From Carboxylicivirga marina (GTDB lineage: Bacteria > Bacteroidota > Bacteroidia > Bacteroidales > Marinilabiliaceae), in NCBI RefSeq assembly GCF_016612505.1, contig NZ_JAENRR010000011.1:1-64000 (forward strand): DNA of 64,000 nucleotides, written 5' to 3'. The position numbers and the translations under genes are program-made. Position 1 is the first letter of the stretch; each line of letters begins with the position of its first letter. Of the stretch, positions 5,297 to 50,972 are shown in pieces. The notes beneath the pieces were generated by a model. The model saw only the letters and a list, made by a program, of their open reading frames with translations, searched no databases and was not told where the DNA came from.

Positions 5297-5899
5297 ATGG
5301 ATATTATTGAAATAATAATTTTAAGAAGGGTGAATAATATAGAAATAATCGCAAGTCAATTTCTGAAAAATAAAGATTTAAAATCTTTCAAGTTGTTATA
5401 TGACAGTAGCTTCAGAAGATTGTGTTTCTTTGCAGAGTCTCTACTTGCTGACAAGCAGGATGTTGAAGATGTTGTTCAGGATGCTTTGGTTTTGATATGG
5501 GAAAGGAGGCATAAGATTGATGATAGTATCAATATATTAGGATACATGTATATGGTTGTTAAGAATAAATGCCTTAATACCAATCGAAGTATTCGACAGG
5601 CTATTAATTATAAGAACCACCATAATCATCTAATTGAGTTTGATGATACTGAGAGTTTACGAATTATTAAGTCGGAGGTTTACAATGAGATATTAGAAAG
5701 CTTGGAGAAGTTGCCTGAACGCGCCAGGATGGTATTTCGTCTTAGTTATCTGACCCAGATGACTGAGTCGGATATTGCTGATCGATTAAATATTTCAGTC
5801 AATTCGGTCAAAACTCATAAAAAAAGAGCTAAAGAGATATTAAAAAAGGATCTTCAACATCTGTTCTCATTGATTTTATTGTTTAAGTTTTTATCCTAA
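5297..5899 (+). CDS. ECF RNA polymerase sigma factor (FecI/SigQ-like)
   Basis: A 200-residue extracytoplasmic-function sigma factor of the Bacteroides expansion type. Region 2 (about residues 30-95) includes DVEDVVQDALVLIWERRHKI, the core-binding and -10 recognition part. Region 4 (about 130-185) includes LPERARMVFRLSYL and the helix-turn-helix ESDIADRLNISVNSVKTHKKRA. It precedes a FecR anti-sigma gene and a SusC with an STN domain, so it should switch on the SusCD locus when the transporter is occupied. The N-terminal ~12 residues (MDIIEIIILRR) look like an extension; a GTG at 5330 is a possible alternative start. The C-terminus ends in a hydrophobic tail (FSLILLFKFL), slightly unusual for a cytosolic sigma factor. 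Confidence 0.93.
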   Translation: MDIIEIIILRRVNNIEIIASQFLKNKDLKSFKLLYDSSFRRLCFFAESLLADKQDVEDVVQDALVLIWERRHKIDDSINILGYMYMVVKNKCLNTNRSIRQAINYKNHHNHLIEFDDTESLRIIKSEVYNEILESLEKLPERARMVFRLSYLTQMTESDIADRLNISVNSVKTHKKRAKEILKKDLQHLFSLILLFKFLS

Positions 5900-6166
5900 A
5901 AACGACTTCTAAGTAAATATTAGTTCCCAATAAGATGTAATAATTCTGCATAAATCATTCGAAAAACGCATCTTGAACAGTTACTTTATAATAAAAGCCT
6001 TTGTGTATCGATAATTGAGGTTAAAACCGGAGATTGCTAAGTTACGCTTGAATGTTCTTGAGATATGGTGCTTAGTGTGGATTCTTAGAATTAATTCTAA
6101 TTTTTTTTTACATCCTTTCACCTATGTCGTTTTCCCATGAGATTATATTATAAATAAGTTGTGAAT

Positions 6167-7336
6167 ATGAACCCAATTGAACTTTCAAAATTAATTATAA
6201 AGCATATTAAAGGTAAGATCTCTGAAGAAGAGAGAGAGTTTCTTGACAGTTGGAGAAATAAAAAGAAACATGCTGAATTAATGGAGGAATTGACTGATAT
6301 AAATCAGGTATCCAAAGAATTATGTAGGTATAGCTCTTTTCGGAAAGATGAGACATGGTTGAAAGTGGAAAAGAGAATTAATCCGCAAAGGAAAGTAGCC
6401 ACTGGCCTGAACTATTTAATCAGAGTGGCTGCTGTAGTATTATTGATTGTTTCAGTCAAGTTATCTATGCAATTATTTATTTCGGAGTCTACCGATGAAT
6501 CATTTATGTCAAATAAAACCATCAAGGCAGGTGATTTTAAGGCTGTTCTTAAAATTGATGGCAGTGAAGATATTATTATCCGGGATACGCTAACATACGA
6601 TGTAAAGAGACAGGAGTCTTTACTGGCTAAAATAGACAAGGGACAATTGGTATATGAAAATAATACATCCATAACACCTTCAAATATAGATATTCAGGTG
6701 CCAGAACGTTCAGAGTTCATGTTTACCTTATCAGATGGTTCTGTTGTCTGGCTAAATGCAGGAAGTAGACTGACCCTTCAACAGCCTTTTAGTGATGACA
6801 AAAGGAATGTGATACTCGAGGGTGAGGCTTATTTTGAGGTAAAACATGACAGCGATAGGCCCTTTACAGTGAATGTGCCAGGAGAAAATTCAATACGCGT
6901 ATTGGGCACTTCTTTTAATGTAAATGCCTATCTGACAGAGAAAATATTCCACACTGTTTTGGTAGAAGGAAGTGTATTATGGAAAACTAAAGGAGGACAG
7001 GAAAGAATTCTGGAACCTGAGCAGCTCTTAAGTTATGAAGTAAATGGAACTCAAATTGATGTAAAATCAGTTCGAACAGAAAATTATACAGCATGGAAAG
7101 ACGGCCGTTTTGTATTTGATGGGGAGCCTCTCTTTAAAATTATGCAATCATTAAGTCGTTGGTATGGTGTTGATGTTAATTATTTGCACCCGAAAATAAA
7201 AGATATTCCATTTAGTATGGATGTTGAAAAGTATGAAGACCTAAACACAATTTTAGAGATGTTTGAATATACCCAAAAGGCCAAATTTGACATTAATGAT
7301 AAAGGAGTAGTTACTGTAAGTAAATTTTCGCATTAA
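6167..7336 (+). CDS. FecR family anti-sigma factor
   Basis: A 389-residue FecR protein. Residues 1-75 form the cytoplasmic sigma-binding part, a single membrane span lies at about 83-103, the periplasmic FecR domain at about 175-275 contains SDGSVVWLNAGSRL and GEAYFEV, and a C-terminal DUF4974-type domain (about 315-385) contains FVFDGEPLFKIMQSLSRWYG. It relays occupancy of the outer-membrane transporter (through the STN domain) to the sigma factor encoded 267 bp upstream. I chose ATG 6167 (MNPIELSK) over the in-frame GTG two codons earlier. The order sigma, FecR, SusC is the standard TonB-dependent trans-envelope signalling arrangement. Confidence 0.93.
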   Translation: MNPIELSKLIIKHIKGKISEEEREFLDSWRNKKKHAELMEELTDINQVSKELCRYSSFRKDETWLKVEKRINPQRKVATGLNYLIRVAAVVLLIVSVKLSMQLFISESTDESFMSNKTIKAGDFKAVLKIDGSEDIIIRDTLTYDVKRQESLLAKIDKGQLVYENNTSITPSNIDIQVPERSEFMFTLSDGSVVWLNAGSRLTLQQPFSDDKRNVILEGEAYFEVKHDSDRPFTVNVPGENSIRVLGTSFNVNAYLTEKIFHTVLVEGSVLWKTKGGQERILEPEQLLSYEVNGTQIDVKSVRTENYTAWKDGRFVFDGEPLFKIMQSLSRWYGVDVNYLHPKIKDIPFSMDVEKYEDLNTILEMFEYTQKAKFDINDKGVVTVSKFSH

Positions 7337-7417: not shown

Positions 7418-10400
7418 ATGTACAATATTTTTAAATTTATGAAAGTACTGTTTCTATTTCTATTTGTAGTGCTTGTTTGTCAAGATGCAAATAGTCAAAC
7501 TCCTAAATTGTCTATCAATCAGCATAATGCCACAATTAAGCAGGTTTTTAATGCAATTATGTCGCAAAGTGAGTATACTTTTCTTTACAGTGATGCGGAT
7601 ATAAATAAGCTAAGCACAGTTAGTGTAAATGCTGATGAAATATCTATAGACAAAATACTTGACATATGTCTTGCTAAAAGTAATTTATCTTATAAAATTC
7701 AAGATGAGGTAATCATCATTAGACCTGTAACGCAAGTTGAAGAGCCTCAAAAAATGGTAGCAATACGTGGACAGGTTTTGGATGATAGTGGATTGCCAAT
7801 ACCTGGGGTTAATATTATTTTAAAAGAACTAAATACGGGAACTGTCACAGATAACAATGGTAAATACGAAATGAATGTACCGGATGGAAAGGGAACTTTA
7901 GTGTTTTCATTCATTGGTTTTCAGAAACTCGAGGAAAAAATAAGAGGAAGGGATAAGGTGAATGTGAGTCTAAGTGTTTCAGTTAATGATATTGAAGGTG
8001 TAATTGTTACAGGTTATGGGAAAAGAAGTAAAGAAAGTTACACGGGAGCAGTAAGTTCATATAGTGGTTCAGACTTGGTTAAAGTTAGCAGTGCTAACAT
8101 CCTTAGTACTTTGCAGGCTTTGGATCCATCATTTGAAATGGTTGAAAACAATGAAATAGGATCTGATCCGAACATTATACCTGAATTTGAGATAAGAGGA
8201 GAAGCCAGTATTCCAGGCTTGGAAGATGAGTTTGATGGAAGCCCTAATATGCCAACATTTATATTGGATGGCTTCCAGGTTACTCCACAGGTAATATTTG
8301 ATATGGATCCTAACAGAGTGGAGTCCATTACCTTACTTAAAGATGCTTCTGCGACTGCAATTTATGGATCGAAAGGTGCTAACGGGGTGGTTGTAATCAC
8401 AACCAAGGCACCTGAAGCTGGAAAAATGAACGTTGATTATAAATACAGCTTAGCCCTTTCTGCTCCTGATCTGACCGATTACGATTTATTAAATGCAAGC
8501 GAAAAACTGCAACTGGAAAAAGAGGCCGGTTATTTTAATGGGACAAGTTTCATTGATGATATAGAGAAAGCTAAAGAGGAATATAACCGGAAATTAATGT
8601 TTGTTGAAAAAGGTTATGATACCTACTGGTTAGCAAAGCCCGTCCAAACTGCGATGAGCCATAAGCATTCGACTACACTTGGAGGCGGTAACGAAAGTTT
8701 ACGCTATGGTCTGATATTAACATATGAAGATAATAAAGGTGTTCTTAAAGGTTCAGGTCGGAATCGCTATGGTTTTGCCGTATCTCTTCAATACGTGCTT
8801 CAGAATTTTACTTTCAGAAACATATCATCCTACAGTAATGTTGTTTCAATGAATTCACCTTATGGTTCATTCAGTCAATATGCCCGAATAAATCCGTATT
8901 ACAGAGATAAAGATGACGAAGGAAACTATTTGTATGCTTTTGATCGTATTGGAGCAAACCAAAAGGTGTATAATCCTCTTTTTAATACAACTCTTAATAC
9001 TATTGATGAAAGGAAAATTAGGAACTTTAGCAATAATTTTAGCATTGACTGGCAAATTGGACAATCTTCAATAATCAGGGGTTCATTGGCTTTAAATCAG
9101 CAAACAAATAACCGTGATAAATTTTTACCTGGAGATCATACCTCCTTTGCCAATATGAAAGATTTTTCAAAAAGGGGAAGCTATATTGCAGGAAGTGGAG
9201 TGTCCTTTGGCTATCAGGGTAACCTAAGATATACTTTTTCAAAAACTATCGCTAATCATCTTTTCTACTTAAATTTGGGAGGTGAAATACAGGAAAATTC
9301 TAGTCAGGATTATTCAATCAAAGTAATAGGGTTTCCAAATGAAAAATTAGACGCCGTATTTTTTGGAAAGGAATATTCTGTTGGTAAACCTTCTGGAAGT
9401 GAATACAGCAGTAGAGCTCTTAGCTCCATAGGCATATTCAATTATGCTTATGATAGTCGTTACCTCTTTGATGTTTCTTACCGCATTGACGGTTCTTCTC
9501 GTTTTGGTGCAAATAGTCGTTGGGCACCATTTTGGTCCATTGGAGGAGGCTGGAATGTTCATAAAGAAACGTTTATGAAATCTCAAAGCGTTCTTAGCCG
9601 TTTAAAAATAAGAGGTTCTTATGGTATTACCGGATCTCAGAATTTTAATCCTTACCAGTCATTAACGACTTATCAATATTATGATGATACAAGATATCAC
9701 TATGGTTATGGTTCAACTTTACTTGGATTAGGAAATAAGAACCTTAGCTGGCAACAGACTGTACAGTCCAATGTAGGTATTGACGCTGATTTTTTTAACG
9801 GTCGTTTATCTTTGTCTGGCAATGTTTACAAGAAACTTTCCAAGGATGTGTTAACGCCTGTAACCCTTCCTACATCACTGGGGTTTAACACCTATCTTGA
9901 AAATTTGGGACAGATAGAAAATAAGGGCTTTGATGCAAAGGTTACGCTGGTATTAATAAAAAACACCTCGTCCAATGTCAATTGGACGCTTAATTTCTCA
10001 GCCGTCAGAAATATCAATACATTAAAGAAATTATCCAATAGCCTGAAGTCTATTAATGAATCAAACGATAAAATACTGGATGGTCCGGATAGGGATGAAA
10101 ACTATAACCCGATTGAAGTAAATAGGCCAATAGTCAGATATATTGAAGGAGAATCTGCCAATACCATCTGGGCAGTTCGTTCATTAGGGATTGATCCAAT
10201 CACTGGAAAGGAAGTTTATCTGACAAAGGATAAGCAACTTACGAATATCTGGAATTCCAAAGATCAAGTGCCTGTTGGAACGTCTGATGCAATTTTGCGA
10301 GGAAATTTTGGAACCAGGCTGAAGGTGAAAAGATTGGAATTAAGATCAATATTCAGCTATAGACTAGGAGGCCAACAATATAATTCTACGCTTGTAAGTA

Positions 10401-10738
10401 GAGTTGAAAATGCTGATAAACGTTACAATGTTGACCGACGGGTGTTTGAGGAAAGGTGGAAAAAACCTGGTGATATTACCTTTTTCAAAAATGTAGCTGA
10501 CCATTCACAAACAAAACCAACATCTCGATTTGTTGAAGATTATAGTTTTATCAATATAACATCTTTGTCATTTTCATATGATTTGACTTATCCAGCCATT
10601 AAAAAGATAGGGGTTAAATACATGGATCTTACCTTCTTTATGAACGATCTTCTCCGCATCTCCACAATAAAAATGGAGAGAGGACTAAACTACCCATTTG
10701 CACGATCTGCAACGTTTTCAGTACGTTTAAAAATGTAA
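7418..10738 (+). CDS. SusC/RagA-type TonB-linked outer-membrane transporter with STN domain
   Basis: An 1106-residue outer-membrane receptor. In order: signal peptide (about 1-27), STN signalling domain (about 30-105, binding FecR), carboxypeptidase-regulatory-like beta domain (about 115-190; GQVLDDSGLPIPGVNI), the SusC-type linker GVIVTGYGKR, plug domain with the family motif LKDASATAIYGSKGANGVVV (about 305-325), then a 22-strand barrel to the C-terminus ending in VRLKM. It pairs with the SusD lipoprotein 17 bp downstream to import a large nutrient. The STN domain marks it as a regulated transducer, consistent with the ECF/FecR genes in front. The substrate is not encoded in the sequence; the proteases and lack of glycan enzymes nearby favour peptides. 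Confidence 0.96.
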   Translation: MYNIFKFMKVLFLFLFVVLVCQDANSQTPKLSINQHNATIKQVFNAIMSQSEYTFLYSDADINKLSTVSVNADEISIDKILDICLAKSNLSYKIQDEVIIIRPVTQVEEPQKMVAIRGQVLDDSGLPIPGVNIILKELNTGTVTDNNGKYEMNVPDGKGTLVFSFIGFQKLEEKIRGRDKVNVSLSVSVNDIEGVIVTGYGKRSKESYTGAVSSYSGSDLVKVSSANILSTLQALDPSFEMVENNEIGSDPNIIPEFEIRGEASIPGLEDEFDGSPNMPTFILDGFQVTPQVIFDMDPNRVESITLLKDASATAIYGSKGANGVVVITTKAPEAGKMNVDYKYSLALSAPDLTDYDLLNASEKLQLEKEAGYFNGTSFIDDIEKAKEEYNRKLMFVEKGYDTYWLAKPVQTAMSHKHSTTLGGGNESLRYGLILTYEDNKGVLKGSGRNRYGFAVSLQYVLQNFTFRNISSYSNVVSMNSPYGSFSQYARINPYYRDKDDEGNYLYAFDRIGANQKVYNPLFNTTLNTIDERKIRNFSNNFSIDWQIGQSSIIRGSLALNQQTNNRDKFLPGDHTSFANMKDFSKRGSYIAGSGVSFGYQGNLRYTFSKTIANHLFYLNLGGEIQENSSQDYSIKVIGFPNEKLDAVFFGKEYSVGKPSGSEYSSRALSSIGIFNYAYDSRYLFDVSYRIDGSSRFGANSRWAPFWSIGGGWNVHKETFMKSQSVLSRLKIRGSYGITGSQNFNPYQSLTTYQYYDDTRYHYGYGSTLLGLGNKNLSWQQTVQSNVGIDADFFNGRLSLSGNVYKKLSKDVLTPVTLPTSLGFNTYLENLGQIENKGFDAKVTLVLIKNTSSNVNWTLNFSAVRNINTLKKLSNSLKSINESNDKILDGPDRDENYNPIEVNRPIVRYIEGESANTIWAVRSLGIDPITGKEVYLTKDKQLTNIWNSKDQVPVGTSDAILRGNFGTRLKVKRLELRSIFSYRLGGQQYNSTLVSRVENADKRYNVDRRVFEERWKKPGDITFFKNVADHSQTKPTSRFVEDYSFINITSLSFSYDLTYPAIKKIGVKYMDLTFFMNDLLRISTIKMERGLNYPFARSATFSVRLKM

Positions 10739-10755: not shown

Positions 10756-12195
10756 ATGAAATATATAAGTTATATAACGATGGTTGTTTTGCTTAGTGCC
10801 CTGTTTTCATCTTGTGAAAGCTGGCTTGATATTATGCCCAAGTCTCGAGTGCGAGCAGAAGAACTATTTGAAACAGAGTCCGGTTTTAGGGAAGCACTCT
10901 TTGGAATTTATACATCTGCATCGCAACGAACGCTTTATGGCGAAAATTTGACCATGAGTTTTCTTGATGTATTAGCTCAGAATTATGTCATCAATCATAA
11001 TGAGGATGCCTTTTATTATGAATCCATTTATGACTATAATGAGCAAAACGTTGAAAATAGAATCGCTTCAATATGGGCTGGCATGTATAATGTGATTGCA
11101 AATTGTAATAGTTTATTGAATGCATTAGACGGCAAAGAAAAGCTATTTAAGGATCATAATTATAGTTTCTTTTTGGCCGAGACAAAGGCTCTCAGAGCGT
11201 TTCTGCATTTTGACTTATTGCGCTTATATGCTCCTTCTGCAAATGTCATAGGCGATCAGCCAGCTATCCCTTTTGTTGATCAATTGACCAATGTTCCCTT
11301 TCCTCAGTTGTCAGCTAATGAGGTCTTAGAAAGAATTATATCAGAATTGTTAGTGGCCAGAGGATTGTTGGCAGATATTGATCCTATAGGTCCTAGATAT
11401 ACAGAATACAGTGAGGAAGAGGTTGCCATTGAAGATGTCGTTTATGATAAGGGATTTCTGCTCCACAGAAAGAATAGGTTAAATTATTATGCAATAACAG
11501 GACTGCTCGCAAGGGTTTATTTATACAAAGGAGATAAAAACGCTGCTGCAAAAATGGCCGTTGAGGTGATTGATTCACAAAAATTTAATTTTCAAACCGT
11601 ATATGATGATGATGGGGAAAATAATAATTTGGATATCAGTGAAATTAGAGATCAGATCTTCTATGAAGAAATAATTTTTGGTTTGTATAATGATAAGCTG
11701 GGTGAAATGAGCCGATGGCTGTTTGCCACTGACGGTGGACTTTTCATACCACCCGAGAGACTGAAAATGTATTTCGAGATTCCAAGCTATGGAACAATTG
11801 ATGAAAGGTACCGATATCAATTTGAAATACCTAACAGTGCCACTGTTGAAGTTCTTGCTAAATATGGCAATAGGGATCGGACAATTCCGCTTATTCGCCT
11901 GGCTGAAATGTATTATATAGCAGCAGAGTGCGCTGATAGCAACGAAGAAGCATTGGACATGCTAAATACCGTTCGTAAGAGCAGAGGGTACGAAGACTTA
12001 TCAGCCAGTACAGACTTTAATGCCGAATTGCAGAAAGAATATCGAAAAGAATTTATAGGAGAAGGGCAACTCTTTTATTTTTTCAAAAGAAGGAATGCTA
12101 CAGTTATTCCATATTCTTCCATTACTGGTTCTGATAAAGTTTATGTATTGCCTATACCATCAATTGAAAAGGAATTTGGAAACATTAACGACTAA
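10756..12195 (+). CDS. RagB/SusD family nutrient-binding lipoprotein
   Basis: A 479-residue SusD homologue. A lipoprotein signal peptide ends in LFSSC (Cys at about residue 20), followed by the typical WLDIMPKSRVRAEELF start, the TPR-rich body with ETKALRAFLHFDLLRLYAP (about 135-155), the RLAEMYYIAAECA helix (about 375) and a C-terminal lid with KEYRKEFIGEGQLFYFFKRR. SusD proteins sit at the cell surface and close over the SusC barrel. Translational coupling is likely at both ends (17 bp after susC, 3 bp before the DUF4843 gene). Confidence 0.95.
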   Translation: MKYISYITMVVLLSALFSSCESWLDIMPKSRVRAEELFETESGFREALFGIYTSASQRTLYGENLTMSFLDVLAQNYVINHNEDAFYYESIYDYNEQNVENRIASIWAGMYNVIANCNSLLNALDGKEKLFKDHNYSFFLAETKALRAFLHFDLLRLYAPSANVIGDQPAIPFVDQLTNVPFPQLSANEVLERIISELLVARGLLADIDPIGPRYTEYSEEEVAIEDVVYDKGFLLHRKNRLNYYAITGLLARVYLYKGDKNAAAKMAVEVIDSQKFNFQTVYDDDGENNNLDISEIRDQIFYEEIIFGLYNDKLGEMSRWLFATDGGLFIPPERLKMYFEIPSYGTIDERYRYQFEIPNSATVEVLAKYGNRDRTIPLIRLAEMYYIAAECADSNEEALDMLNTVRKSRGYEDLSASTDFNAELQKEYRKEFIGEGQLFYFFKRRNATVIPYSSITGSDKVYVLPIPSIEKEFGNIND

Positions 12196-12198
12196 ATT

Positions 12199-12906
12199 AT
12201 GAAGATACTATTTAAATATTTGCCGGCGTTTGCTTTTATCATTTTTTGTGCCTGTCAGGAGAGCGAGCGCATGCTATTTAATTCTCAAGCAGCCATTTAT
12301 TTCAACGTATCTGACAACCCTGGAGAGGAAGAGTCCGATAGCCTCATTTATTCTTTTGCAAAGGGGTTTAAACAATCGGATACTGTACATGTGAATGTGA
12401 AAATAATTGGAGAGACGACAAATTATGATCGCTATTTTAAAGTTTCTGTTGACGAATCGCTGACAACAGCAGTAGAAGGTGTTGATTTTAATGAATTGGC
12501 AGGTCAGTATAAACTGCCGGCTAATTCATTTACTGGTTTTGTGTCTTTGGTTTTAAATAACAGTTTAAAACTACAGGAACAATCTGTGTGTGTTGGACTA
12601 CGTGTAGAGGAATCGGTTGATTTCAAAATTGGTTTGCAAGAGAAACTTACGGCACGAATTATTTTCTCAGATTTCCTGATGAAATCTCCCATATGGGATA
12701 TATGGTTAAAATATTATTTTGGCACATACAGTCGGGTGAAGCACCGGGTTTTTTTGGAGCTTTTTAACATTGATGTGCCTCAATCTATGAGTGAAATGAC
12801 AGAAGATGGTTTGTGGAGAAGTTATGGAACTATACTTAATAATTATTTTAAAGAGAACTATCCGGTATATGATGAAAAAGGATCAGTCATTGAACCTTGG
12901 CAATAA
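12199..12906 (+). CDS. DUF4843 domain lipoprotein
   Basis: A 235-residue lipoprotein: signal peptide with FCAC (Cys about residue 19), then a Calx-beta-like fold typical of DUF4843 (FNSQAAIYFN near residue 30, TTAVEGVDFN near 93, VCVGLRVEES near 132). The family is encoded after SusCD in loci that also hold PKD-like and TlpA-like proteins. The role is probably surface binding of the substrate or assembly of the SusCD complex; this is inferred only from context. It starts 3 bp after susD. Confidence 0.85.
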   Translation: MKILFKYLPAFAFIIFCACQESERMLFNSQAAIYFNVSDNPGEEESDSLIYSFAKGFKQSDTVHVNVKIIGETTNYDRYFKVSVDESLTTAVEGVDFNELAGQYKLPANSFTGFVSLVLNNSLKLQEQSVCVGLRVEESVDFKIGLQEKLTARIIFSDFLMKSPIWDIWLKYYFGTYSRVKHRVFLELFNIDVPQSMSEMTEDGLWRSYGTILNNYFKENYPVYDEKGSVIEPWQ

Positions 12907-12917
12907 CGATAATATTG

Positions 12918-14360
12918 ATGAAAGCTATGAGAAGATCTAATTACTTTGCTTTATGGATTATTAGTTTAACGATTATTCTACATTCGTGTTACGACGATTT
13001 GGGGAATTACGATTATATGGAACTGAATGATATAAGCCTTTCTGGTATAGATAGTTTATACGTTGTAAAGCAGTTTGATACTTTGTCTATCACTCCTTTT
13101 ATTTCTCAAAAGATCGAGGCTGACGAAAGTAAGCTAGAATATTTTTGGCATATGTATCCTGAGAATCGTATTAATTATTCAGATACATTGTCATTTGATA
13201 GAGACATGGAAAAAATCATTGGCTCCCCACCTGGGTTGTATATGGCTGCTTTTGAGGTTACGGATTCAGAGACAGGTGTTTTTTATAAGCATGAATTTTT
13301 TATTAAAGTGATCAGTAATTACTCTGATGGCTTGATGATTCTAAGTAATATAGATGAGCTCGCTAATGTCACTTTCATCAATACTGCCGGAGACCTATTT
13401 CATGATTTGTATTTTAAAGTAAATGGAAGCTATGCAGGTCGAAATCCAACAGCACTTGGTCATGGTCATTTTCATGACCGATCAGATAACGGAGTTATTA
13501 TGATCTTATGTAATGATGAAGTAGGTGGAGTAGTCACTGAACCAATAGGATTCATGCATATAGGTGAATATTCAGATTTATTTTGGATTCCTCCTTCAGA
13601 ATCGAAACCAATGGCATATTATTCTTTTGGAAGTTTTTATGATGATGCAGTCATAGATAATGGTCAGTTATACTTCAGAACCTGGTTTAGTATGCCTCCT
13701 GTACGTTATCAAGCACCACAAACACAAGAGACCAAACTTTACCCAGCTATATTTAAAGGAGGCTGGTCTGGATTGGTTGTTTACGACAATGCAAATGAGC
13801 GATTTATGGCCAAAGGAATGAATTATGCGAATGTTGTTCCAGAAAAAACTGGTGCTTTTAATCCGGCCGACGTCGGAATGCAGATGATTTATGGAGGTAA
13901 AGGGTATAAGGGGCTTGGTTATGGCGTTTTCTACGATGATAATTTAAGCGAATATTATATTTTGAGTTATACATTGTCAACATCATCCGTTACTCCGGGG
14001 CAAAAAACATTGTTATCTAAGGGTTCAGGAATAGATCAGGCCACTGCTTTTGCAGTTTATACACAATCCCCTTTGCTTTATTTTGCAGTCGATAATATCC
14101 TTTACTATTGGGATCAATCAAAAAGGGAAATCATTGCAGGCTATACCTTTGATGAATCATTGTCAATTGATTACCTGGAATTCGACGTTTATAATTCAAA
14201 CCTTTTGTATGTAGGTACCAGTGATTCAAATTCAGTTTCGAAAAAACAAGGCAACCTGCACTATTTATCTGTTTCTTTTGACGGTGCAACAATCCTGACG
14301 AAAACATATCCTAATGTAGGTGGAAAAATTGTAGATGTAATGGACAAAAGACCATTGTAA
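12918..14360 (+). CDS. PKD-like family surface lipoprotein
   Basis: A 480-residue lipoprotein of the PKD-like family that accompanies DUF4843 in SusCD loci. The signal peptide ends in ILHSC (Cys at residue 24 from ATG 12918), followed by YDDLGNYDYMELNDI, the typical start of the mature protein. An N-terminal Ig/PKD-like part (about 35-135) precedes what looks like a beta-propeller (about 140-475) with repeated aromatic/Gly blades. An in-frame TTG at 12897 would extend it into the DUF4843 gene, but the ATG gives a cleaner signal peptide. It probably binds substrate at the surface; the ligand is unknown. Confidence 0.85.
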   Translation: MKAMRRSNYFALWIISLTIILHSCYDDLGNYDYMELNDISLSGIDSLYVVKQFDTLSITPFISQKIEADESKLEYFWHMYPENRINYSDTLSFDRDMEKIIGSPPGLYMAAFEVTDSETGVFYKHEFFIKVISNYSDGLMILSNIDELANVTFINTAGDLFHDLYFKVNGSYAGRNPTALGHGHFHDRSDNGVIMILCNDEVGGVVTEPIGFMHIGEYSDLFWIPPSESKPMAYYSFGSFYDDAVIDNGQLYFRTWFSMPPVRYQAPQTQETKLYPAIFKGGWSGLVVYDNANERFMAKGMNYANVVPEKTGAFNPADVGMQMIYGGKGYKGLGYGVFYDDNLSEYYILSYTLSTSSVTPGQKTLLSKGSGIDQATAFAVYTQSPLLYFAVDNILYYWDQSKREIIAGYTFDESLSIDYLEFDVYNSNLLYVGTSDSNSVSKKQGNLHYLSVSFDGATILTKTYPNVGGKIVDVMDKRPL

Positions 14361-14396: not shown

Positions 14397-15809
14397 ATGA
14401 ATAATAACTTATCTAAATTAATACTAGGTCTTTTGACCATTGGATTCCTACTTGCTTCATGCACAAAAAAAAATGAATATGCATCAATAAAAGGAGTTTA
14501 CAAAGGAATTCCTGAGGGAAAGGAAATTCACCTTAGCAAAGTGGCTCATGGCCAGCTTGAAAAAATTGCCGTTACTTCACTTGGAGCAGATGGACGGTTT
14601 GGATTTACATATTCTGTGGATGAGCCGGCGTTATATGTGACTAATATAGTGTGGAAAAAAAGTCAAAAAACTATTAACAGAGATCATAATCTCACTCGCT
14701 TTTACCTCGCGAACGGTGATGAATTAAATATTAATTTATGGGATGATAAATACGAATTAATACAGACTAATACAGCAGCCAATAAGTTATTAACCGAATG
14801 GAATAACCAGGTCGATAGTCTTTATACATTCTCACATGGCTTCGCCTATACCAGGGCTGATTACCAGGAGTTTTTTCCGTTAATTGAGAATTTTGAAGCT
14901 GAAATGATTTCATTTCAGGGGAAAATAAAAACAAGTGATAAGCATTTTAATGAACTGTTGAAATTATTGGTTGAAACAGACCTGAGTTATTCATGTCTAA
15001 ATTTTTTGTTTACTCCAAGACCAAAACATGCTGATCGAGCTGATTATCCAGAGTTCTACGATAAAATTATTGAGATGTATAATCCTAAATCGGATCTGTT
15101 GCTTCATCTGCCAATTGGAAGTGCATACATGCATATTTTTAATATGTTTGCTCAAACTTCATTATCATCCATTCCTTCAACAGTCAATAAGCGTTTTGAT
15201 ATTTTTTCCGAACGGTTTGGTACCGACTTGTTAAAAGGATACTATGCTCTGTACAATCTTCATAGTTTCAAAACTTATGATTCCGAATTTTTAACGTACA
15301 GAAAGAAGGTTGAGCCATTTTTAGTATCTGATTACCTCAAGCAAAAGATGCAGGATTATGAAATCTCAATTCGTAAATTTGAACGTGGAGCGCTGGCTTT
15401 CGATTTTACAGGATATGATATGACCAATCAGGCGGTTAAATTATCAGATTTTAAAGACCAGATTGTATATGTTGATATTTGGGCCACTTGGTGCAAGCCA
15501 TGTACCGACCAGATTCCTTATCTCAAAAAACTTGAGAAAAAATTTCAGGGTAAGCCAATTACTTTTCTTAGCCTCTCATTAGATGATCTAAGAGATAGAA
15601 AGAAATGGGAAGAATTTGTAGAATCAAAAGAGCTTGGTGGAATTCAGCTAATGAGTGACAAAGGTTTTGATTCTGATATAGCGAAAGCCTATAGTATTAC
15701 ATCAATACCCCGATTCTTACTGATTGACAAACAAGGTAAGATTATTTCTTCTAATGCAGTAAGACCTTCTGAAGAAAATACAGAAGCCTTGCTTAACTCA
15801 TTACTATAA
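14397..15809 (+). CDS. TlpA-like thioredoxin-fold lipoprotein, copy 1 (WCKPC)
   Basis: A 470-residue lipoprotein (lipobox LLASC, Cys-22) with an N-terminal beta domain of the DUF4369 kind (about 28-115), a helical middle (about 120-310) and a C-terminal TlpA/AhpC-TSA thioredoxin fold (about 325-470). The active site is W365-C-K-P-C369, preceded by YVDIWAT, with the cis-Pro loop SIPRFLLID. Such proteins are thiol-disulfide reductases of the periplasm or surface. The gene is followed 45 bp later by a trypsin-fold protease with a Cys nucleophile. It is a clear paralogue of the gene at 16814, with full-length similarity, so the TlpA-protease pair was duplicated in tandem. Confidence 0.9.
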   Translation: MNNNLSKLILGLLTIGFLLASCTKKNEYASIKGVYKGIPEGKEIHLSKVAHGQLEKIAVTSLGADGRFGFTYSVDEPALYVTNIVWKKSQKTINRDHNLTRFYLANGDELNINLWDDKYELIQTNTAANKLLTEWNNQVDSLYTFSHGFAYTRADYQEFFPLIENFEAEMISFQGKIKTSDKHFNELLKLLVETDLSYSCLNFLFTPRPKHADRADYPEFYDKIIEMYNPKSDLLLHLPIGSAYMHIFNMFAQTSLSSIPSTVNKRFDIFSERFGTDLLKGYYALYNLHSFKTYDSEFLTYRKKVEPFLVSDYLKQKMQDYEISIRKFERGALAFDFTGYDMTNQAVKLSDFKDQIVYVDIWATWCKPCTDQIPYLKKLEKKFQGKPITFLSLSLDDLRDRKKWEEFVESKELGGIQLMSDKGFDSDIAKAYSITSIPRFLLIDKQGKIISSNAVRPSEENTEALLNSLL

Positions 15810-15854
15810 CCTTGATGATAATTATTTATAGGCCTTTAATATAATTCTGTGTTG

Positions 15855-16769
15855 ATGACATATTTAAAAATAAAGTTTATTCTTTTCTCTTTGGTATTAA
15901 TGCTTGTTGTAGTTGGATGTCTGTCGAGAGCAACAAAGGAGCAGCCAAATGAAGTAAACAGAGTTTCTGAAGAAACATCTGCACCGGTGGATGATTATGA
16001 AGTGTTTAAAAAGTTTCTGGATAAAGCGTCTGGTTACTATGAAAAAAACGGAGGAATTACTTCAGATGTTTTAAAGAAGCAAATGCTGTCAGGCGATTGT
16101 AATATTAAACTTTTTAGTTCTGGTCAAAGGGATGTTCCTTTTAGCTTTTATAACCATACTAAGGAGCACGTACTTATTCAAGGAAATCTTTATAAATGTG
16201 ATCATTGTCCTGATTTTCACCTAAGAATAGAAACTGCCTTTCCTATTACAGAGGATGGTTTGTGTGTATCCAACTATCATGTATTTAAGTCATACGATCC
16301 CTCAAAGCCAAATGATTACATTACTTCTTTTGTAATGGATTTCAAGGGGGAAGTTTATCCGGTGACCGAAATTATCGCAGCCAGTAAACAAGATGATTTG
16401 TGTATATTTAAGATAGAGTGTCCGCCTTCAAATTTTAAACCCTTGAAGTTAGGAGCTGATCTTCGCACCGGGGATGAAGTACAGTTAATTAGTCATCCCG
16501 ACAGGCGATTTTTTAGATTAAGTAAAGGACATATTACGCGTAAGTACCTCAAAGCTGGAACATCTAAAATCAGGCAGAGTATTTCAGCAGATATAGGTAC
16601 AGGATCATGTGGCGCGCCTGTATTTGATATTGAAGGCAAAGTTGCCGGGATTGTCACAGGAACAGAAAATGTCTATTATTTGCCGGGTAACAAGGGCTAT
16701 CAAATGACGGTTAAAGAAATTGTTCCTGTTAGCCAATTGTTGAAACTAATCAATACACCGTCAAATTAA
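15855..16769 (+). CDS. Trypsin-fold protease lipoprotein with Cys in the nucleophile position
   Basis: A 304-residue lipoprotein (lipobox VVVGC, Cys-18) with a chymotrypsin/HtrA-like (trypsin_2) domain at about 95-290. Triad positions: His142 in SNYHVF, Asp181 in QDDLCIF, and the GxSGxP loop, which reads GTGSCGAPVF with Cys252 (codon TGT at 16608) where the catalytic Ser is expected. Its paralogue at 18353 has Ser (AGT) there. A CxxCP motif (KCDHCPDF) precedes the His and is shared by both copies. An S1-fold enzyme with Cys nucleophile is known from viral 3C proteases; here it may be a true cysteine protease or a catalytically altered binder. ATG 15855 was preferred over upstream GTG/TTG. Confidence 0.85.
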   Translation: MTYLKIKFILFSLVLMLVVVGCLSRATKEQPNEVNRVSEETSAPVDDYEVFKKFLDKASGYYEKNGGITSDVLKKQMLSGDCNIKLFSSGQRDVPFSFYNHTKEHVLIQGNLYKCDHCPDFHLRIETAFPITEDGLCVSNYHVFKSYDPSKPNDYITSFVMDFKGEVYPVTEIIAASKQDDLCIFKIECPPSNFKPLKLGADLRTGDEVQLISHPDRRFFRLSKGHITRKYLKAGTSKIRQSISADIGTGSCGAPVFDIEGKVAGIVTGTENVYYLPGNKGYQMTVKEIVPVSQLLKLINTPSN

Positions 16770-16813: not shown

Positions 16814-18226
16814 ATGATGAAAAACACGATGAGGAATTTGATTTCGGGATTGATTGCTATCCTTCTGATGGCATCAGCCTGTCAGGCAGAAAAAGGGAAT
16901 TTTGCCTACATAGAAGGCAGGTTTCATGGTGACACAAAGGGTATAAAGATCAATTTGAGTAAAGTTGTTAATGGTAAAACTTTGGCTGTTTCTAACTGTA
17001 CGCCTGGAAATGAAGGTCGGTTTGGTTTTACCTGTCCCATAAATGAATCAGGTATTTATGTAATCAATGTAATTAAGAACGGAGGTATTTACAGCAGAGA
17101 TGTAGGTTTGAATCGCTTTTTTCTGGAAAAAGGAACGACCATAGATCTTGATCTTTGGGGAGACAAATATGAGTTGCGAGAAACGAATAACCATAAAAAT
17201 GAATGGCTAACAGAGCTTAATACATTGATGGATACCGTCTTTACCTATTCCCATGGTCAGTTTTTCTCCTTTTCAACATATGAAGAATTCTTTCCGCTAC
17301 TACCTGAATATGTTGCTAATAATCAACAGTTTCAAAAACGCATTAATACGGGAGATAAAGATTTTGATGAGCTTTTAACTTTGATGGCTGAGACGGATAT
17401 TAATTCTGCTTCATTAAAATTTGTTCAATCAATGCGAAAAAAGCACCCAAAGCGAGGTGATTATCCTGATTATTATGATGTTATACGTGAACAAAAGGCT
17501 CCTGTTTCTCCCCGAATGTTTGAGTTGCCAACTGGATTTGACTACATACTTAGTTATGCGCGTTTTGCTGTTAAAGAACTTCCTGAACAACCAGCCTGGG
17601 GTAGAAGTGTTCATAAATATATTGAGCTGACAAATAATGAGGTGTTCAAAGGTCATATTGCACTTTATTTCCTAAAAAGGAAACAAGCCTATAATCCACA
17701 ATATCTGGAATTTAAGGAAGATATGACTCCATATTTGATCACAGATTATCTGAAAGATGAAGCGAGGAAGCATGATTTGTCAATTCGCCAATTTGCCAAA
17801 GGCACAAAAGCCTTCAATTTTGTAGGAACAGATACGGAAGGCAAAGAACATAGTCTGTATGATTACAAAGGTAGCCTGATATATGTAGATGTGTGGGCGA
17901 CATGGTGCGGACCTTGCACGCAAGAAATACCTCACCTGGAAAAACTGGAAAAGAAGTTTCACGGGAAGAAAGTGAAATTTATAAGTTATTCTTTAGATAA
18001 GCCAAGGGACTTGAAAAAGTGGCAAGCTTATGTCAATAAACATAATATGAGTGGACTACAATTAGTAGGAGATAAGGGCTTTGGATCTGACATAGCTCAG
18101 GATTACGCCATTTCGTCAATACCTCGTTTCATGCTTTTTGATCAGGATATGAAAATTATTAGTGTGAATGCACCACGTCCATCAAGTGGAAAAGTGATTG
18201 AAGATTTGATCAATTCGCATCTATAG
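16814..18226 (+). CDS. TlpA-like thioredoxin-fold lipoprotein, copy 2 (WCGPC)
   Basis: A 470-residue paralogue of the gene at 14397, with identical domain order: lipoprotein signal (MASAC, Cys about 23), beta domain with GRFHGDTKGIKINLSKV, helical middle, and a C-terminal TlpA fold with W364-C-G-P-C368 and SIPRFMLFD. The dipeptide between the Cys residues is GP here and KP in copy 1, which usually shifts the redox potential. It follows the Cys-protease gene by 44 bp and is separated from the Ser-protease gene by a strong terminator, so it probably ends the main SusCD transcript. Confidence 0.9.
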   Translation: MMKNTMRNLISGLIAILLMASACQAEKGNFAYIEGRFHGDTKGIKINLSKVVNGKTLAVSNCTPGNEGRFGFTCPINESGIYVINVIKNGGIYSRDVGLNRFFLEKGTTIDLDLWGDKYELRETNNHKNEWLTELNTLMDTVFTYSHGQFFSFSTYEEFFPLLPEYVANNQQFQKRINTGDKDFDELLTLMAETDINSASLKFVQSMRKKHPKRGDYPDYYDVIREQKAPVSPRMFELPTGFDYILSYARFAVKELPEQPAWGRSVHKYIELTNNEVFKGHIALYFLKRKQAYNPQYLEFKEDMTPYLITDYLKDEARKHDLSIRQFAKGTKAFNFVGTDTEGKEHSLYDYKGSLIYVDVWATWCGPCTQEIPHLEKLEKKFHGKKVKFISYSLDKPRDLKKWQAYVNKHNMSGLQLVGDKGFGSDIAQDYAISSIPRFMLFDQDMKIISVNAPRPSSGKVIEDLINSHL

Positions 18227-18242: not shown

Positions 18243-18285
18243 GCATGATGCATTTTTTAATTCCACGAATGCATCATGCATTTTT
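18243..18285 (+). terminator. Terminator after TlpA copy 2
   Basis: gcatgatgcatt (18243-18254) and aatgcatcatgc (18268-18279) form a perfect 12-bp stem, followed by attttt. It lies 17 bp after the TlpA stop and 68 bp before the next start codon, dividing the second TlpA gene from its protease. Confidence 0.8.
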
Positions 18286-18352: not shown

Positions 18353-19216
18353 ATGAAACCAACATTATATCTGACTTGTATATTATTGTGTTACTTATAT
18401 GCCTGTAATAATTATAAAACCTCCGGAGTAGAAGAGGTAATAGAGGACATCCGTTATACAAAGATATTTGAGTCTAAAGCATCCGATTACTATTCGAAAA
18501 ATGGAGGTACATCATCTGATACATATAAAAAACAGTTGCTTAATGAAAAATGTGAAGTGAAATTGGATAGTATTTTACATGAAGCAAACGGAAGCCAAAA
18601 CTTCTATACAACACATAAACATCAAGTTCTAATATATGGGAAAATGTACAATTGTGGGAACTGTCCGGAATGGCATATCTCAGCTGCTACAGCTTTCCCA
18701 ATTAGTGATGACGGTATCTGTGCATCAAATTACCATGTATTTGATTCTTATAATCCTGATAGCTCGGAAGATTATGAAACATCATTTGTTATGGACCTCA
18801 AGAAAAATATTTATCCGATTGTTGAAGTACTTGCTGCCAGTAAGAAGGATGATCTAGCAATATTCAGGATTAACTGTGAACCGAATACTATCAAACCTTT
18901 GGTTTTAGGCAATGATTTGGTCAATGGTGGAGACGTTTGTTTAATTTCCCATCCCGACAGTCGTTATTATACTTTTACTCAGGGCATACTAAACAGGACC
19001 TATATTAAGCCAAAGGAAGGAATTTTGAGGCAAAGTATGTCAGCAGCATTTGCCAGGGGCTCAAGTGGTGCTCCTGTCCTGGATAGTACTGGTAAAGTGG
19101 TTGGTATAGTAGCAGGTACATCGCCCGTTTTCAGAAATGGCAATCCGAGCGAAGGCCATCAAATGATAGTTAATGAGATAGTGCCCGTGAGTCGTTTGAG
19201 GGCCCTGATAAACTGA
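18353..19216 (+). CDS. Trypsin-fold serine protease lipoprotein, copy 2
   Basis: A 287-residue paralogue of the gene at 15855, again with a lipoprotein-type N-terminus (LYAC, Cys about 18). The triad is canonical: His128 (SNYHVF), Asp167 (KDDLAIF) and Ser238 (GSSGAPV). The CxxCP motif (NCGNCPEW) is kept. It is a secreted serine endopeptidase by family, probably degrading proteins outside the cell for uptake by the SusCD pair. It lies beyond a terminator, so it may have its own promoter in the 68-bp gap or depend on read-through. It ends the tandem duplication. Confidence 0.88.
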   Translation: MKPTLYLTCILLCYLYACNNYKTSGVEEVIEDIRYTKIFESKASDYYSKNGGTSSDTYKKQLLNEKCEVKLDSILHEANGSQNFYTTHKHQVLIYGKMYNCGNCPEWHISAATAFPISDDGICASNYHVFDSYNPDSSEDYETSFVMDLKKNIYPIVEVLAASKKDDLAIFRINCEPNTIKPLVLGNDLVNGGDVCLISHPDSRYYTFTQGILNRTYIKPKEGILRQSMSAAFARGSSGAPVLDSTGKVVGIVAGTSPVFRNGNPSEGHQMIVNEIVPVSRLRALIN

Positions 19217-19245
19217 TATTTACATTTTGTACAGAATGTGTTAAG

Positions 19246-19279
19246 AGTTGTCTGAAACTAAATCAGACAACTTTTTTTA
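19246..19279 (+). terminator. Terminator of the SusCD/protease region
   Basis: agttgtctga (19246-19255) pairs with tcagacaact (19263-19272), followed by seven Ts. It lies 29 bp after the last protease stop codon. Confidence 0.88.
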
Positions 19280-19923: not shown

Positions 19924-22719
19924 TTATTTTTTAATCACTTTATGAACTTTTTCACCTTCTACAGATACGATATATATACCTGCCGGCTGAGAAGATAGAT
20001 CAATGGTAAGTTCATTTGTGTTCGCGTAAACAGAGTTGATTAATGCTCCAGTAACACTATAAATCATCACTTTGCTTCCTTGACCTATATTGTTAATTTT
20101 AATCATCCCTGTTGTAGGGTTTGGACTTATGCTGATAGTCAATAAATAATCCTTTTTAACAGCAGTAGGTGTATCAAGTGTTTGCCATTTAAGGTATGGA
20201 CGGGTATCGGAACTTATTTCACTGATAACGCCTATGTGCCATACATCAGAAAAGTTGAAACCTGTAAAGTTTACAGAAGACTCGAATTGTGTTGTAGTTA
20301 GGCCATTTGCATTTTCATTGGCAGCTGCCCCGTTATACATTGATGTCTCTGATGAGGTGGTTACATTCCAATAGCAGTTGGTAGGGGCAACTGAGCAGAT
20401 GCCAGCAAAACCACCCTTATTGATCCCATTAGTAAGAGTTACAGTACCGGTCGAATAGCAGTGATTGAGGCGTCCGGCACCAAATCTCGCATCACCTGCA
20501 AAACCGCCAACTCTATCACTTCCTTCAACATTGCCTGTTGCATATGAATTAGCCACGCCTTTATAAACTAGAGTTTCACCAGGATAAGAAATATAACCAA
20601 TCAACCCTCCAACATAGCTTTTATTAGCAGTTACAGACCCTGTGGCATAACATTGAGAAACTAATACCGTCATTGAGGTATTGCCTAATCTCCCAATCAA
20701 ACCACCTGCGTAAGAACTCATTGATGCTCCTTCTCCCAATACATTTGCTGATGAAACATTATTTGTATATGTTCCAGTAGCTGCATATCCAACCAATCCG
20801 CCAATATAATCAGTTCCATCAATTGCTCCTGATGTTGAACAATTATCCATAGTAGTGGTAAGTGAATAACCTGCAATTCCACCAATATAGCTATCACCGG
20901 ATATTGTGGCATTTATTAGTTTTATATTCTTAATTGTGGCCCCTTTTGTATATCCAAACAGTCCAATATAGTCAATTGTTGGACGATTAATTGTTAAGTT
21001 ATTAATTGAATAAACATCGCCATCAAAAGAGCCAGTAAACTTAATGGCACTTGTACCAATAGGGATAAATCCTTCACCTCCATTAGAGGCGCTTGTGGTA
21101 CTTGCATCAATATCTGCACCAAGTTTAAAATGATTAGTCCAAAGGCTATTGTTGGAGCTGACAACCTCTAACTGCTCTAAAGTTGTGATTATAAAAGGAT
21201 CAATATCTGTACCGGTACCTCCGGTGAATACAGATGGATCGAAACCAACATTGGCTGTAATACTCGTAGGCGAGTCTGCAGCCACAGTTAAGGTATACGG
21301 GTTTTCTGTGCTTAACTCTGCTCCATTGGCAGTCCAATTGAGAAGAACATGATTGTTAACAACAGTAGCTGAAAGGCTCACAATATCTCCAATTGCATAA
21401 GTGCCTGTACCACTTAATGCGCTTATTTTTGAAGCAGGAACTCCATCAACAACTATGGTTATACCACCGTTAAACCATTTGAAATATGGGCGGGCATTGG
21501 CGTCTATTTCGGTAATGGTACTTATTTCCCAAATATTGGCATTTAAGCCTGGCAGGTTTGCCATGCTGGCAAATTGAGCAGTTGTTAATCCGAAACTTGT
21601 GTAATCGCCAGTATGGGTTTGACCTAAGATGGCTGTTTGTCCGGTAGCTTCTGTATCCCAATAACAATTGTTTATATAGGTTTCATTTCCAATCCCGGCA
21701 ATACCTCCCTGATTATAGATCATTCCTCCGAAGACAATGTCAGGCTTGCCATCTACGCTCACTGCTGCAAAAGAATATGAATCCTGAACCGTCGATTTCA
21801 TATATCCAACGATGCCACCTGCCTCTGTTAAAGAGTGAACAGAACCAGAGCTAAAACAACTTGTTGTTGAACCGTTTGACAAACCAATTAAGCCCCCGGC
21901 ATAAATACTTGTACTGGATACTGTTGCTGTGGAGTAGCATAAGGTCACTTTATTCGACTGGCCAACAAGACCTCCGGTATTTTGACCTGCAGAAGTAACT
22001 GTACCTGTTGAATAACAAAATCGAAGCTCGCCTGTTGACTTACCAACAAGTCCACCTGTATCTGAATTAGTTCCAGTTACAGTTGCAGAAGAGTTACATT
22101 CTAAAATAAGAGATGGGCTTGAACCAATAAGCCCACCAATACTAGTTCCATTAATTCCTGTGCCATTACCGGAAACAGTTCCAGTGGTAGAGCACCTTGT
22201 TATTATATCGGCCGTACTACCCACGCTACCAATTAAACCACCAACAAATGTCTGCCCTGCTACTGTAACGTTAGTCAGACCTAAATCTGTTATGGATGAG
22301 ACTCTGGTTGAACCAAAAAAACCTACCCAATTTGTTGCTGGCCGATTGATGGTGATATTGCTGATGGACTTGTTATTACCATCAAAAGTACCAGTAAAGG
22401 TATTGTCTGGCCCTTTGTTATCACCAATGGGATTAAAACCTTCATAAACAATTGGATCTGCCGATGGGTCAACAGGGTTCCAGGTGGCTGTTTCTGTAGC
22501 ATCGATATCTGCTGTCAGGATATAGTAAGAGCTCATCCTGGTGACTATATCATCAGTGCCATCCACACCCTCAGATATCCAGCGAAGATGGGCGAGTGTG
22601 GATATTTGATATGGATTTGCCTCTGTTCCTTCTCCTGAAGGAAGTTCTGCAACTGTCTGTGCCATAATAGCAGCAGTTAATGCAAAATAAATTGATAATA
22701 ATGTAAATAATTTTTTCAT
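19924..22719 (-). CDS. GLUG-repeat surface protein with type IX secretion sorting domain
   Basis: A 931-residue secreted protein. Signal peptide about 1-20 (ending AAIMAQ). Two similar halves follow: each opens with a GT(D/E)xxP(Y/F)-I-T/STL segment, an ADIDA-T segment, G(F)xPIG, FTG(S/T)FDG and ITINRP-type strands, and continues with many GLUG repeats (GGLVG, GGLIG, CYSTGTV, CYATGSV) that build a right-handed beta helix. Between the halves lies a Gly/Thr-rich linker (about 425-495). The last ~75 residues (PNPTTGMIKI, then YSVTGALI, then PAGIYIVSV and HKVIKK) form a type A Por/T9SS sorting domain, so it should be exported by the gliding/Por system and anchored or released. Adhesin-like; ligand unknown. 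It is a single-gene unit. Confidence 0.93.
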   Translation of the reverse strand: MKKLFTLLSIYFALTAAIMAQTVAELPSGEGTEANPYQISTLAHLRWISEGVDGTDDIVTRMSSYYILTADIDATETATWNPVDPSADPIVYEGFNPIGDNKGPDNTFTGTFDGNNKSISNITINRPATNWVGFFGSTRVSSITDLGLTNVTVAGQTFVGGLIGSVGSTADIITRCSTTGTVSGNGTGINGTSIGGLIGSSPSLILECNSSATVTGTNSDTGGLVGKSTGELRFCYSTGTVTSAGQNTGGLVGQSNKVTLCYSTATVSSTSIYAGGLIGLSNGSTTSCFSSGSVHSLTEAGGIVGYMKSTVQDSYSFAAVSVDGKPDIVFGGMIYNQGGIAGIGNETYINNCYWDTEATGQTAILGQTHTGDYTSFGLTTAQFASMANLPGLNANIWEISTITEIDANARPYFKWFNGGITIVVDGVPASKISALSGTGTYAIGDIVSLSATVVNNHVLLNWTANGAELSTENPYTLTVAADSPTSITANVGFDPSVFTGGTGTDIDPFIITTLEQLEVVSSNNSLWTNHFKLGADIDASTTSASNGGEGFIPIGTSAIKFTGSFDGDVYSINNLTINRPTIDYIGLFGYTKGATIKNIKLINATISGDSYIGGIAGYSLTTTMDNCSTSGAIDGTDYIGGLVGYAATGTYTNNVSSANVLGEGASMSSYAGGLIGRLGNTSMTVLVSQCYATGSVTANKSYVGGLIGYISYPGETLVYKGVANSYATGNVEGSDRVGGFAGDARFGAGRLNHCYSTGTVTLTNGINKGGFAGICSVAPTNCYWNVTTSSETSMYNGAAANENANGLTTTQFESSVNFTGFNFSDVWHIGVISEISSDTRPYLKWQTLDTPTAVKKDYLLTISISPNPTTGMIKINNIGQGSKVMIYSVTGALINSVYANTNELTIDLSSQPAGIYIVSVEGEKVHKVIKK

Positions 22720-49695: not shown

Positions 49696-49736
49696 TTCTC
49701 TGTCATTAAAACGTTATCACTTGATGAATACTTTCG

Positions 49737-50969
49737 CTATTTACCCATTAGGTAATGGATAAAAGCTATGGCTGCCTGCTTATCTGTTCTGGCCTTTTCC
49801 AATTCCAGATTGTATTTTAACAAGCGCCTTTCCATCCGTAAAATTTCCTCAAAACTTTTATTGGCGTAAGCATATTCTGTTTCCAATAATTTTAAGGATT
49901 TTCGAGCGATGGTCAGTTGCTTATCAAATAACTTAATTCGACGATGGGCATCACGATAATCTTTCCAGGAATTCTCAAATACGGTTTCCAGCACATTTAC
50001 CTTATCTGCACGCTCATAATCCTTGGCAGTTTCCAGGTAAATGACTTCTTGAACCATGCTCTTATATTTATTTCGATACAGGGGAATGGTTAATCCTACC
50101 TTTGGGAATGCGATGGCATCCTTACCCGATAAATTATTATCACCTTTTCCAATTGAAATATAATCAATACCAAGGCTGAATGTTGGAGCTCCATGTTTTT
50201 TGGCCGCTTGCTTTTTAAATACCAGCGCACTCTTTTGCAAATCGATGCTTAAGAGTTGGTGATTCTTTAATTGAATAGAATCCAATACTGCCACCTTTGT
50301 GTACAGAATATCTGTCGACCACAACTCATCAGGAAAAGTGATAAGCCTCTTTTTATCTAAATTTAGAAGGTTATTGAATGAGACTTCCAACACCTCTTGC
50401 TTGTCCTTTAAGAGTGCCAGTTGATTTTCCAAATCGTTTATTTCCATCTCAATCCGGTACTGGTCAACCGCCGACACTAAGCCAGCTTCAACCTTTACAA
50501 TAGCCAGCTTTTTAAAAGTATTGAGTATCTCTATGTTTTCCAGGGTGATAATAGTAGCCTTGTTATTGAAATACAGATTATACCAATTAGCCTTTACCTC
50601 ATTAAATAGTTTCGACTTGTTTTCTTCAAATAATTCATACAAGGCTTTGGCTTCTTCTATACTGGTATTTTCCTTAGCCTTTAATGTTCCAAACCAGGGA
50701 AACATTTGTGTGGCTGACAGCCTGAACTCCTGAGGACCGTTTCTGGTCTCAACAGGTTGTATAAAATAGGCAAAGGCTAGTTGCGGATCAGGTAATGCGC
50801 CGACCTGTGGAGCCTTTTCGAGGGCAGCCAGGTATTTGTTGAATGAGGCTTTTAAAGCCGGATTATTCTCTGCGGCCTCTACCAAATAGTGATTGAGTTC
50901 ATCCTGTGCATGACTCACACCTGACAAACCTAATAGCACAAATAATATATAAATCTTAATGCGTTTCAT
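49737..50969 (-). CDS. TolC/CusC-like outer-membrane factor
   Basis: A 410-residue TolC-family protein (signal peptide about 1-21, ending VSHAQ) with two alpha-helical coiled halves (about 25-215 and 225-410), including NPALKASFNKYLAALEKAPQ and the P-x-G-DPQL segment. It would form the outer-membrane duct of the tripartite pump. The stop is 42 bp before the adaptor start and its own start is 3 bp after cusA, so they are co-transcribed. Confidence 0.92.
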   Translation of the reverse strand: MKRIKIYILFVLLGLSGVSHAQDELNHYLVEAAENNPALKASFNKYLAALEKAPQVGALPDPQLAFAYFIQPVETRNGPQEFRLSATQMFPWFGTLKAKENTSIEEAKALYELFEENKSKLFNEVKANWYNLYFNNKATIITLENIEILNTFKKLAIVKVEAGLVSAVDQYRIEMEINDLENQLALLKDKQEVLEVSFNNLLNLDKKRLITFPDELWSTDILYTKVAVLDSIQLKNHQLLSIDLQKSALVFKKQAAKKHGAPTFSLGIDYISIGKGDNNLSGKDAIAFPKVGLTIPLYRNKYKSMVQEVIYLETAKDYERADKVNVLETVFENSWKDYRDAHRRIKLFDKQLTIARKSLKLLETEYAYANKSFEEILRMERRLLKYNLELEKARTDKQAAIAFIHYLMGK

Positions 50970-50972
50970 GTC

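Follow-up and report, generated by a model that had tools for sequence, protein, structure and literature searches.

A trypsin-fold lipoprotein of Carboxylicivirga marina with Cys at the nucleophile position, next to its Ser sister: a possible cellular cysteine protease of the PA clan

Cellular proteases of the PA clan use serine as their nucleophile, and viruses have both serine and cysteine kinds, according to a paper on nucleophile exchange in TEV protease (PMC4576821). The same source puts the typical cost of interconverting the nucleophile at more than 10^4-fold in kcat/KM, describes TEV protease variants that retained the use of Cys while evolved toward Ser, a property its authors call nucleophile permissiveness, and asks how chymotrypsin-fold enzymes could switch nucleophile without an unfit intermediate. 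Some Ser codons are reported to lie one base from Cys, with chymotrypsin and the 3C proteases named as an example (PMC9825947). Plasmodium SERA5, whose papain-like domain has Ser in place of Cys, is described as having a role other than catalysis (PMC4671257), and the SERA genes as being clustered in tandem (PMC7132891). Oligopeptide ligands are mentioned for RagA and BT_2264 (PMC7782687). Among titles and abstracts of the open-licence literature we recognised no bacterial PA-clan cysteine protease, and in the available text of a review from 2025 on the clans of cysteine proteases (PMC12445089) the term 'clan PA' does not occur.

The window analysed here is a stretch of 64,000 nucleotides from the genome of C. 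marina (5,649,616 bases in 206 contigs; completeness is given as 100% and contamination as 0.89%). It holds two related protease genes, which we call protC and protS for the residue at their nucleophile position, within a SusC/SusD locus (Table 1).

Table 1. Positions of genes, codons and hairpins of the protC/protS locus in the window
Feature	Position	Strand	Details
ECF-type sigma factor	5297..5899	+	probable regulator
FecR protein	6161..7336	+	probable regulator
SusC/RagA TonB-linked outer-membrane transporter	7418..10738	+	TIGR04056, 607.6 bits
SusD-like protein	10756..12195	+	
DUF4843 protein	12199..12906	+	
PKD_2 protein	12897..14360	+	start approximate
Trx1, TlpA-like thioredoxin	14397..15809	+	WCKPC active site
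protC, Trypsin_2 lipoprotein	15855..16769	+	304 aa counted from ATG; alternative start in ORF listing, GTG at 15849
CxxCPxxH motif of protC	16197..16220	+	Cys115, Cys118, His122; ahead of trypsin domain
His142 codon of protC	16278..16280	+	CAT; catalytic
Asp181 codon of protC	16395..16397	+	GAT; catalytic
Cys183 codon of protC	16401..16403	+	TGT; Cys here in protC alone (45-row A2)
Cys252 codon of protC	16608..16610	+	TGT; nucleophile position
Trx2, TlpA-like thioredoxin	16814..18226	+	WCGPC; Trx1 paralogue, 42% identity
Terminator-like hairpin between Trx2 and protS	18243..18279	+	13 pairs, then T run; z -3.54; coordinates from centroid structure
protS, Ser paralogue of protC	18353..19216	+	287 aa; triad partners His128, Asp167
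Ser238 codon of protS	19064..19066	+	AGT
Terminator-like hairpin 3' of protS	19243..19275	+	

The Cys protein, its Ser sister and their fold

The initial annotation, made from the letters alone, had read protC as a trypsin-fold protease, and two lines of analysis bear this out. A Pfam scan places Trypsin_2 (PF13365) at residues 127-266 with 60.6 bits, against a curated cut-off of 27.6, and an AlphaFold2 model made from a 45-row alignment (A2) has the HtrA fold (mean pLDDT 88.9, pTM 0.82). The structures closest to the model are HtrA1, Deg1, DegP and DegS, with 3nzi_A as the top match (Z 24.2, rmsd 3.3, 200 residues). Down to E 0.01 the scan returned Trypsin_2 alone, with no PDZ domain and no viral or cysteine-type protease family, and 49 residues follow Pro255. 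A lipobox, VVVGC, can be recognised by eye, with Cys22 as the lipobox Cys. Both protC (54.3 bits, E 3e-15) and protS (50.2 bits, E 5e-14) also match the C-terminal part of the PADLOC RT-Protease_XI models, which probably reflects the shared protease fold only.

The reading of Cys at the nucleophile position of this fold, with His142 and Asp181 kept, likewise stands. Cys252 lies in the loop GTGSCGAP, whose glycines are intact beside it. In five phmmer alignments the residue opposite Cys252 is Ser twice, Ala twice and Thr once, and in four of them it sits in a GN[SA]GGP loop, which we take to be the nucleophile loop of HtrA. The solved structure that matches best by sequence, the S1C domain of RsgI9 from Clostridium thermocellum, has Thr at this column. 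By alignment, Cys252 is in the nucleophile column of a trypsin/HtrA-like fold, which speaks against a position outside the active site; protC lacks a complete His-Asp-Ser triad, having His and Asp with Cys for Ser. What marks a PA-clan cysteine peptidase is a chymotrypsin fold whose nucleophile is Cys, and this is what alignment and model predict for protC.

Two further columns are altered. A 14-row alignment (A1) has 22 columns at which all 13 rows besides protC agree, and protC differs at three of them: A183C, Y220F and S252C. Among the other rows, nine depart from the invariant columns nowhere and the remainder at 1 to 10, and with nine of the 14 rows having no departure, three are not few. 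Y220F is a mild change, because Phe occupies that column in 15 of 130 distinct rows and the column is invariant in A1 only. Cys183 lies two residues past Asp181; in A2, 41 of the 45 rows carry Ala at its column, three carry Leu and only protC has Cys, and A183C takes two base changes whichever Ala codon is ancestral. Ahead of the trypsin domain, the CxxCPxxH motif, perhaps a metal-binding site or a disulfide loop, is all-or-none in A2, where 25 of 45 rows have both Cys and the His and 20 have none of the three.

The Ser paralogue that the initial annotation had pointed out next door is the sister of protC. The two proteins share 51% identity over 259 aa, and in a protease tree computed without columns 183 and 252 they pair with support 97/94, inside a clade of seven rows (100/99) that includes five Carboxylicivirga-type orthologues, all with Ser. 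On the sequence evidence, protC and protS arose by a lineage-specific duplication. Their terminal branches are alike (0.92 and 1.00, respectively). With a home-made codon model of seven genes and 257 codons, in which dS is saturated, omega came to 0.063 on the protC branch, 0.020 on the protS branch and 0.060 on the remainder. Forcing omega to 1 on the protC branch moved the log-likelihood from -4565.0 to -4569.7, a cost of 4.7 log units, and three omegas fitted barely better than one (-4565.0 versus -4565.5). The codon model lends weak support because of the saturation of dS, the protS branch having reached 8.2 changes per codon; moreover, the constraint may predate S252C, because omega is an average over the long protC branch and S252C may have arisen anywhere along it. 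Decay of protC should show in an interrupted frame, an accelerated branch, a missing His or Asp, or relaxed omega; each was looked for and none was seen. By these measures protC shows no sign of decay, although S252C may be a recent change.

The nucleophile column among relatives

The 147 aligned rows reduced to 130 distinct ones, fragments included, five of which are gapped at the nucleophile column and were left uncounted. Of the 125 distinct rows that carry a residue at this column, Ser is found in 119, Cys in one (protC) and another residue in five (Thr in two, Ala, Val and Asn in one each). Random residues among homologues, which the initial annotation had linked to decay, are thus not what is seen. 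These last five are remote homologues (E 1e-8 to 1e-15 against the profile); Ser or Asn replaces His in all of them and Asp is also lost in three, and protC is the sole non-Ser row of the 125 that retains both His and Asp. The five, HtrA-like proteins from the same bacterial family (L015, L016, L018, L019 and L023) with both nucleophile and His replaced, would make up a natural pseudoprotease set.

A clade with fixed Cys had been proposed as something to look for; none was found among the 71 genomes of the family, the loci of a scan of 84,980 species or the loci listed at order, class and phylum level, and the Cys form is known from one gene in one species. At family level, matches at E 0.001 came from 18 of 71 genomes, and the 24 matches listed comprise the two window genes, 13 relatives of the same size, all with Ser (13/13), and nine other HtrA-like proteins, mostly longer. 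The 84,980-species scan, which used two short peptide patterns only, one of which protC itself lacks, gave 52 loci with Ser in 52/52 (in L072 the Ser sits in the piece past a frame break). A2 includes 43 of these loci; L044, L047, L052, L057 and L072-L076 were left out of it as a fusion, a short or long frame, a frame break or distant. Samples of 393, 395 and 395 genomes at order, class and phylum level yielded no Cys nucleophile among the 30, 7 and 27 new loci listed, which are far fewer than the total matches. None of 27 pattern matches on viral contigs is a relative, and six phage and 18 plasmid records matched at about 27-33% identity. The genome of C. marina itself has eight Trypsin_2 matches, and the motif, readable at five of these loci, has Ser in four and Cys in protC.

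The one-base difference noted between the codons of the two window genes is real. Across A2 the Ser codon is AGT in 22 rows and AGC in 22, so that all 44 other rows have AGY, and a single transversion from AGT to TGT therefore yields the Cys codon. By a count over the genetic code, Cys is one of the eight non-synonymous single-base changes open to AGT.

A SusC/SusD locus with thioredoxins

The genes run from the sigma factor through FecR, SusC, SusD, DUF4843, PKD_2, Trx1, protC and Trx2 to protS. The SusC gene adjoins the SusD gene, as a SusCD locus is defined, and the gaps between protC and the TlpA-like gene on either side are at most 45 bp. Five terminator-like sites were seen in the region, close to the 3.6 +/- 1.9 that shuffles lead one to expect; from the hairpin between Trx2 and protS, protS may be expressed apart from protC. 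Beside the locus, 19924-22719 (minus strand) encodes a 931-aa protein with a GLUG motif and a Por secretion-system sorting domain, and elsewhere in the window 47575-54776 (minus strand) holds a likely heavy-metal efflux set, with an HlyD/CusB-like protein carrying an HMA domain and an AcrB-type pump.

Similar neighbourhoods recur among the relatives. Within up to 6 kb on each side of the 52 loci, relatives of SusC or SusD were present near 32, TlpA-like genes near 26 and both near 21; DUF4843 was found near 16 and PKD_2 near 14, and 14 loci had none of SusC, SusD, TlpA-like, DUF4843 or PKD_2. The loci include Carboxylicivirga, Ohtaekwangia, Dawidia, Chitinophaga, Flavivirga and Bacteroides. 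Relatives also occur in Planctomycetota and Verrucomicrobiota, where neighbours of this kind were absent from the stretch examined. At four of the five orthologue loci (L025-L028), a pair of TlpA-like genes precedes a single Ser protease. It follows that thioredoxin neighbours are not specific to Cys, since the Ser forms have them too, and the idea that they belong to the Cys form was rejected. A coupling of the CxxC motif to thioredoxin neighbours was also not supported (14 rows with and nine without thioredoxin among those with CxxC, nine and 11 among those lacking it; 43 rows).

In Chitinophaga arvensicola, one ORF (L044:4741-6633) fuses DUF4369, AhpC-TSA (WCAPC) and Trypsin_2, its protease being a Ser form with the CxxC motif. 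This is the only strong thioredoxin match among the protease ORFs examined (E 3e-19; a weak one, E 2.5e-5, occurs in L074), and the fusion supports the view that thioredoxin and protease act jointly. One clade of seven rows (98/98) contains both Trx1 and Trx2, and because their pairing as sisters is weak (64/30), a joint duplication with the protease pair is only likely. From the protease and thioredoxin neighbours only, we infer that this is a probable peptide-uptake locus.

Possible chemistry of Cys252 and known counterparts

We put at roughly 0.5 the probability that protC works outside the cytoplasm as a lipoprotein hydrolase with the Trypsin_2 fold, in which Cys252-His142-Asp181 replaces Ser-His-Asp; as we infer, the thiol of Cys252 would be the working nucleophile. 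After duplication of a Ser protease, protC would have been free to change its nucleophile because the Ser sister may cover the old chemistry, and a single base change from AGT to TGT would have swapped Ser for Cys. The enzyme might trim a protein or peptide for the neighbouring SusC/SusD importer, and the TlpA-like neighbours would hold the Cys252 thiol reduced. Such partners could matter because thiol chemistry outside the cytoplasm needs reduction, and the Ser-to-Cys switch would be tolerable there because thioredoxins would keep the thiol reduced. The broader proposal, that duplication and a one-base switch in a thioredoxin-associated serine family turned protC into a natural cysteine protease of the PA clan in a cellular organism, we advance more tentatively, at somewhat under even odds.

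The main rival, which we judge unlikely although it deserves weight, is that protC is a pseudoprotease that has kept the fold without proteolysis and binds peptides or regulates protS or the importer. A nucleophile swap usually cripples the enzyme (PMC4576821), SERA5 offers a precedent, in the opposite direction, for a non-enzymatic role (PMC4671257), RsgI9 with its Thr is the best match of solved structure, and nucleophile replacement occurs among relatives from the same bacterial family (5/125 rows). However, those five have lost His, whereas protC keeps both His and Asp, and it has gained not Thr, Ala, Val or Asn but Cys, the natural alternative nucleophile. It is improbable, in our view, that oxidation of Cys252 by itself, or a reversible disulfide between it and Cys183 or another Cys, lets thioredoxin switch the protein on or off: two Cys were gained at otherwise invariant sites, A183C at a cost of two base changes, and TlpA-like neighbours and one TlpA-protease fusion would fit such a role, but thioredoxin neighbours are common among Ser forms. 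An error in the sequence, or a harmful or neutral change that arose very recently in a single strain, retains a similarly small probability because this is a single sequence, one base (AGT to TGT) in one assembly, and is opposed by the second unique, two-base change A183C, the intact frame and the completeness and low contamination of the genome.

If the Cys-His-Asp hydrolase is real, a Ser-Cys switch that has until now been assigned to the viral members of the PA superfamily would have been caught in the act. The expectation of the initial annotation that such proteases are rare in bacteria agrees with the statement that cellular PA-clan proteases use serine (PMC4576821), and protC may be a rare cellular instance of a switch otherwise known from viruses. 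A bacterial Cys/Ser sister pair in one locus would make the nucleophile switch testable through single-residue swaps, and the link between thioredoxin and protease (26/52 loci, one fusion) is of interest whatever protC does.

On present evidence, the domain family is known and the Cys form is new, resting on one gene. With the HtrA/Deg-like S1C proteases (PF13365) protC shares fold, His and Asp, and nucleophile loop; those have Ser, whereas protC has Cys, no PDZ domain found, a lipoprotein signature and a place in a SusC/SusD locus. The RsgI9 S1C domain is similar in having a residue other than Ser at the nucleophile column, and differs in that this is Thr and the domain lies within an anti-sigma factor. 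The SusCD peptide importers (Bt2261-64 and RagAB) have in common with this locus the SusC/SusD pair; RagA and BT_2264 are among nine solved-structure matches of the window's SusC, and peptide uptake is here only presumed because the best match is 8aa4, another SusC homolog. As in protC and protS, one member of the tandem SERA family has exchanged its nucleophile, in that case from Cys to Ser, in a papain-like fold and in a eukaryote. Finally, the viral 3C, 3C-like and TEV proteases have, like protC, a Cys nucleophile on a PA-clan fold; unlike them, protC matches Trypsin_2 as its only Pfam family, and its sister, like the family around the two, has Ser.
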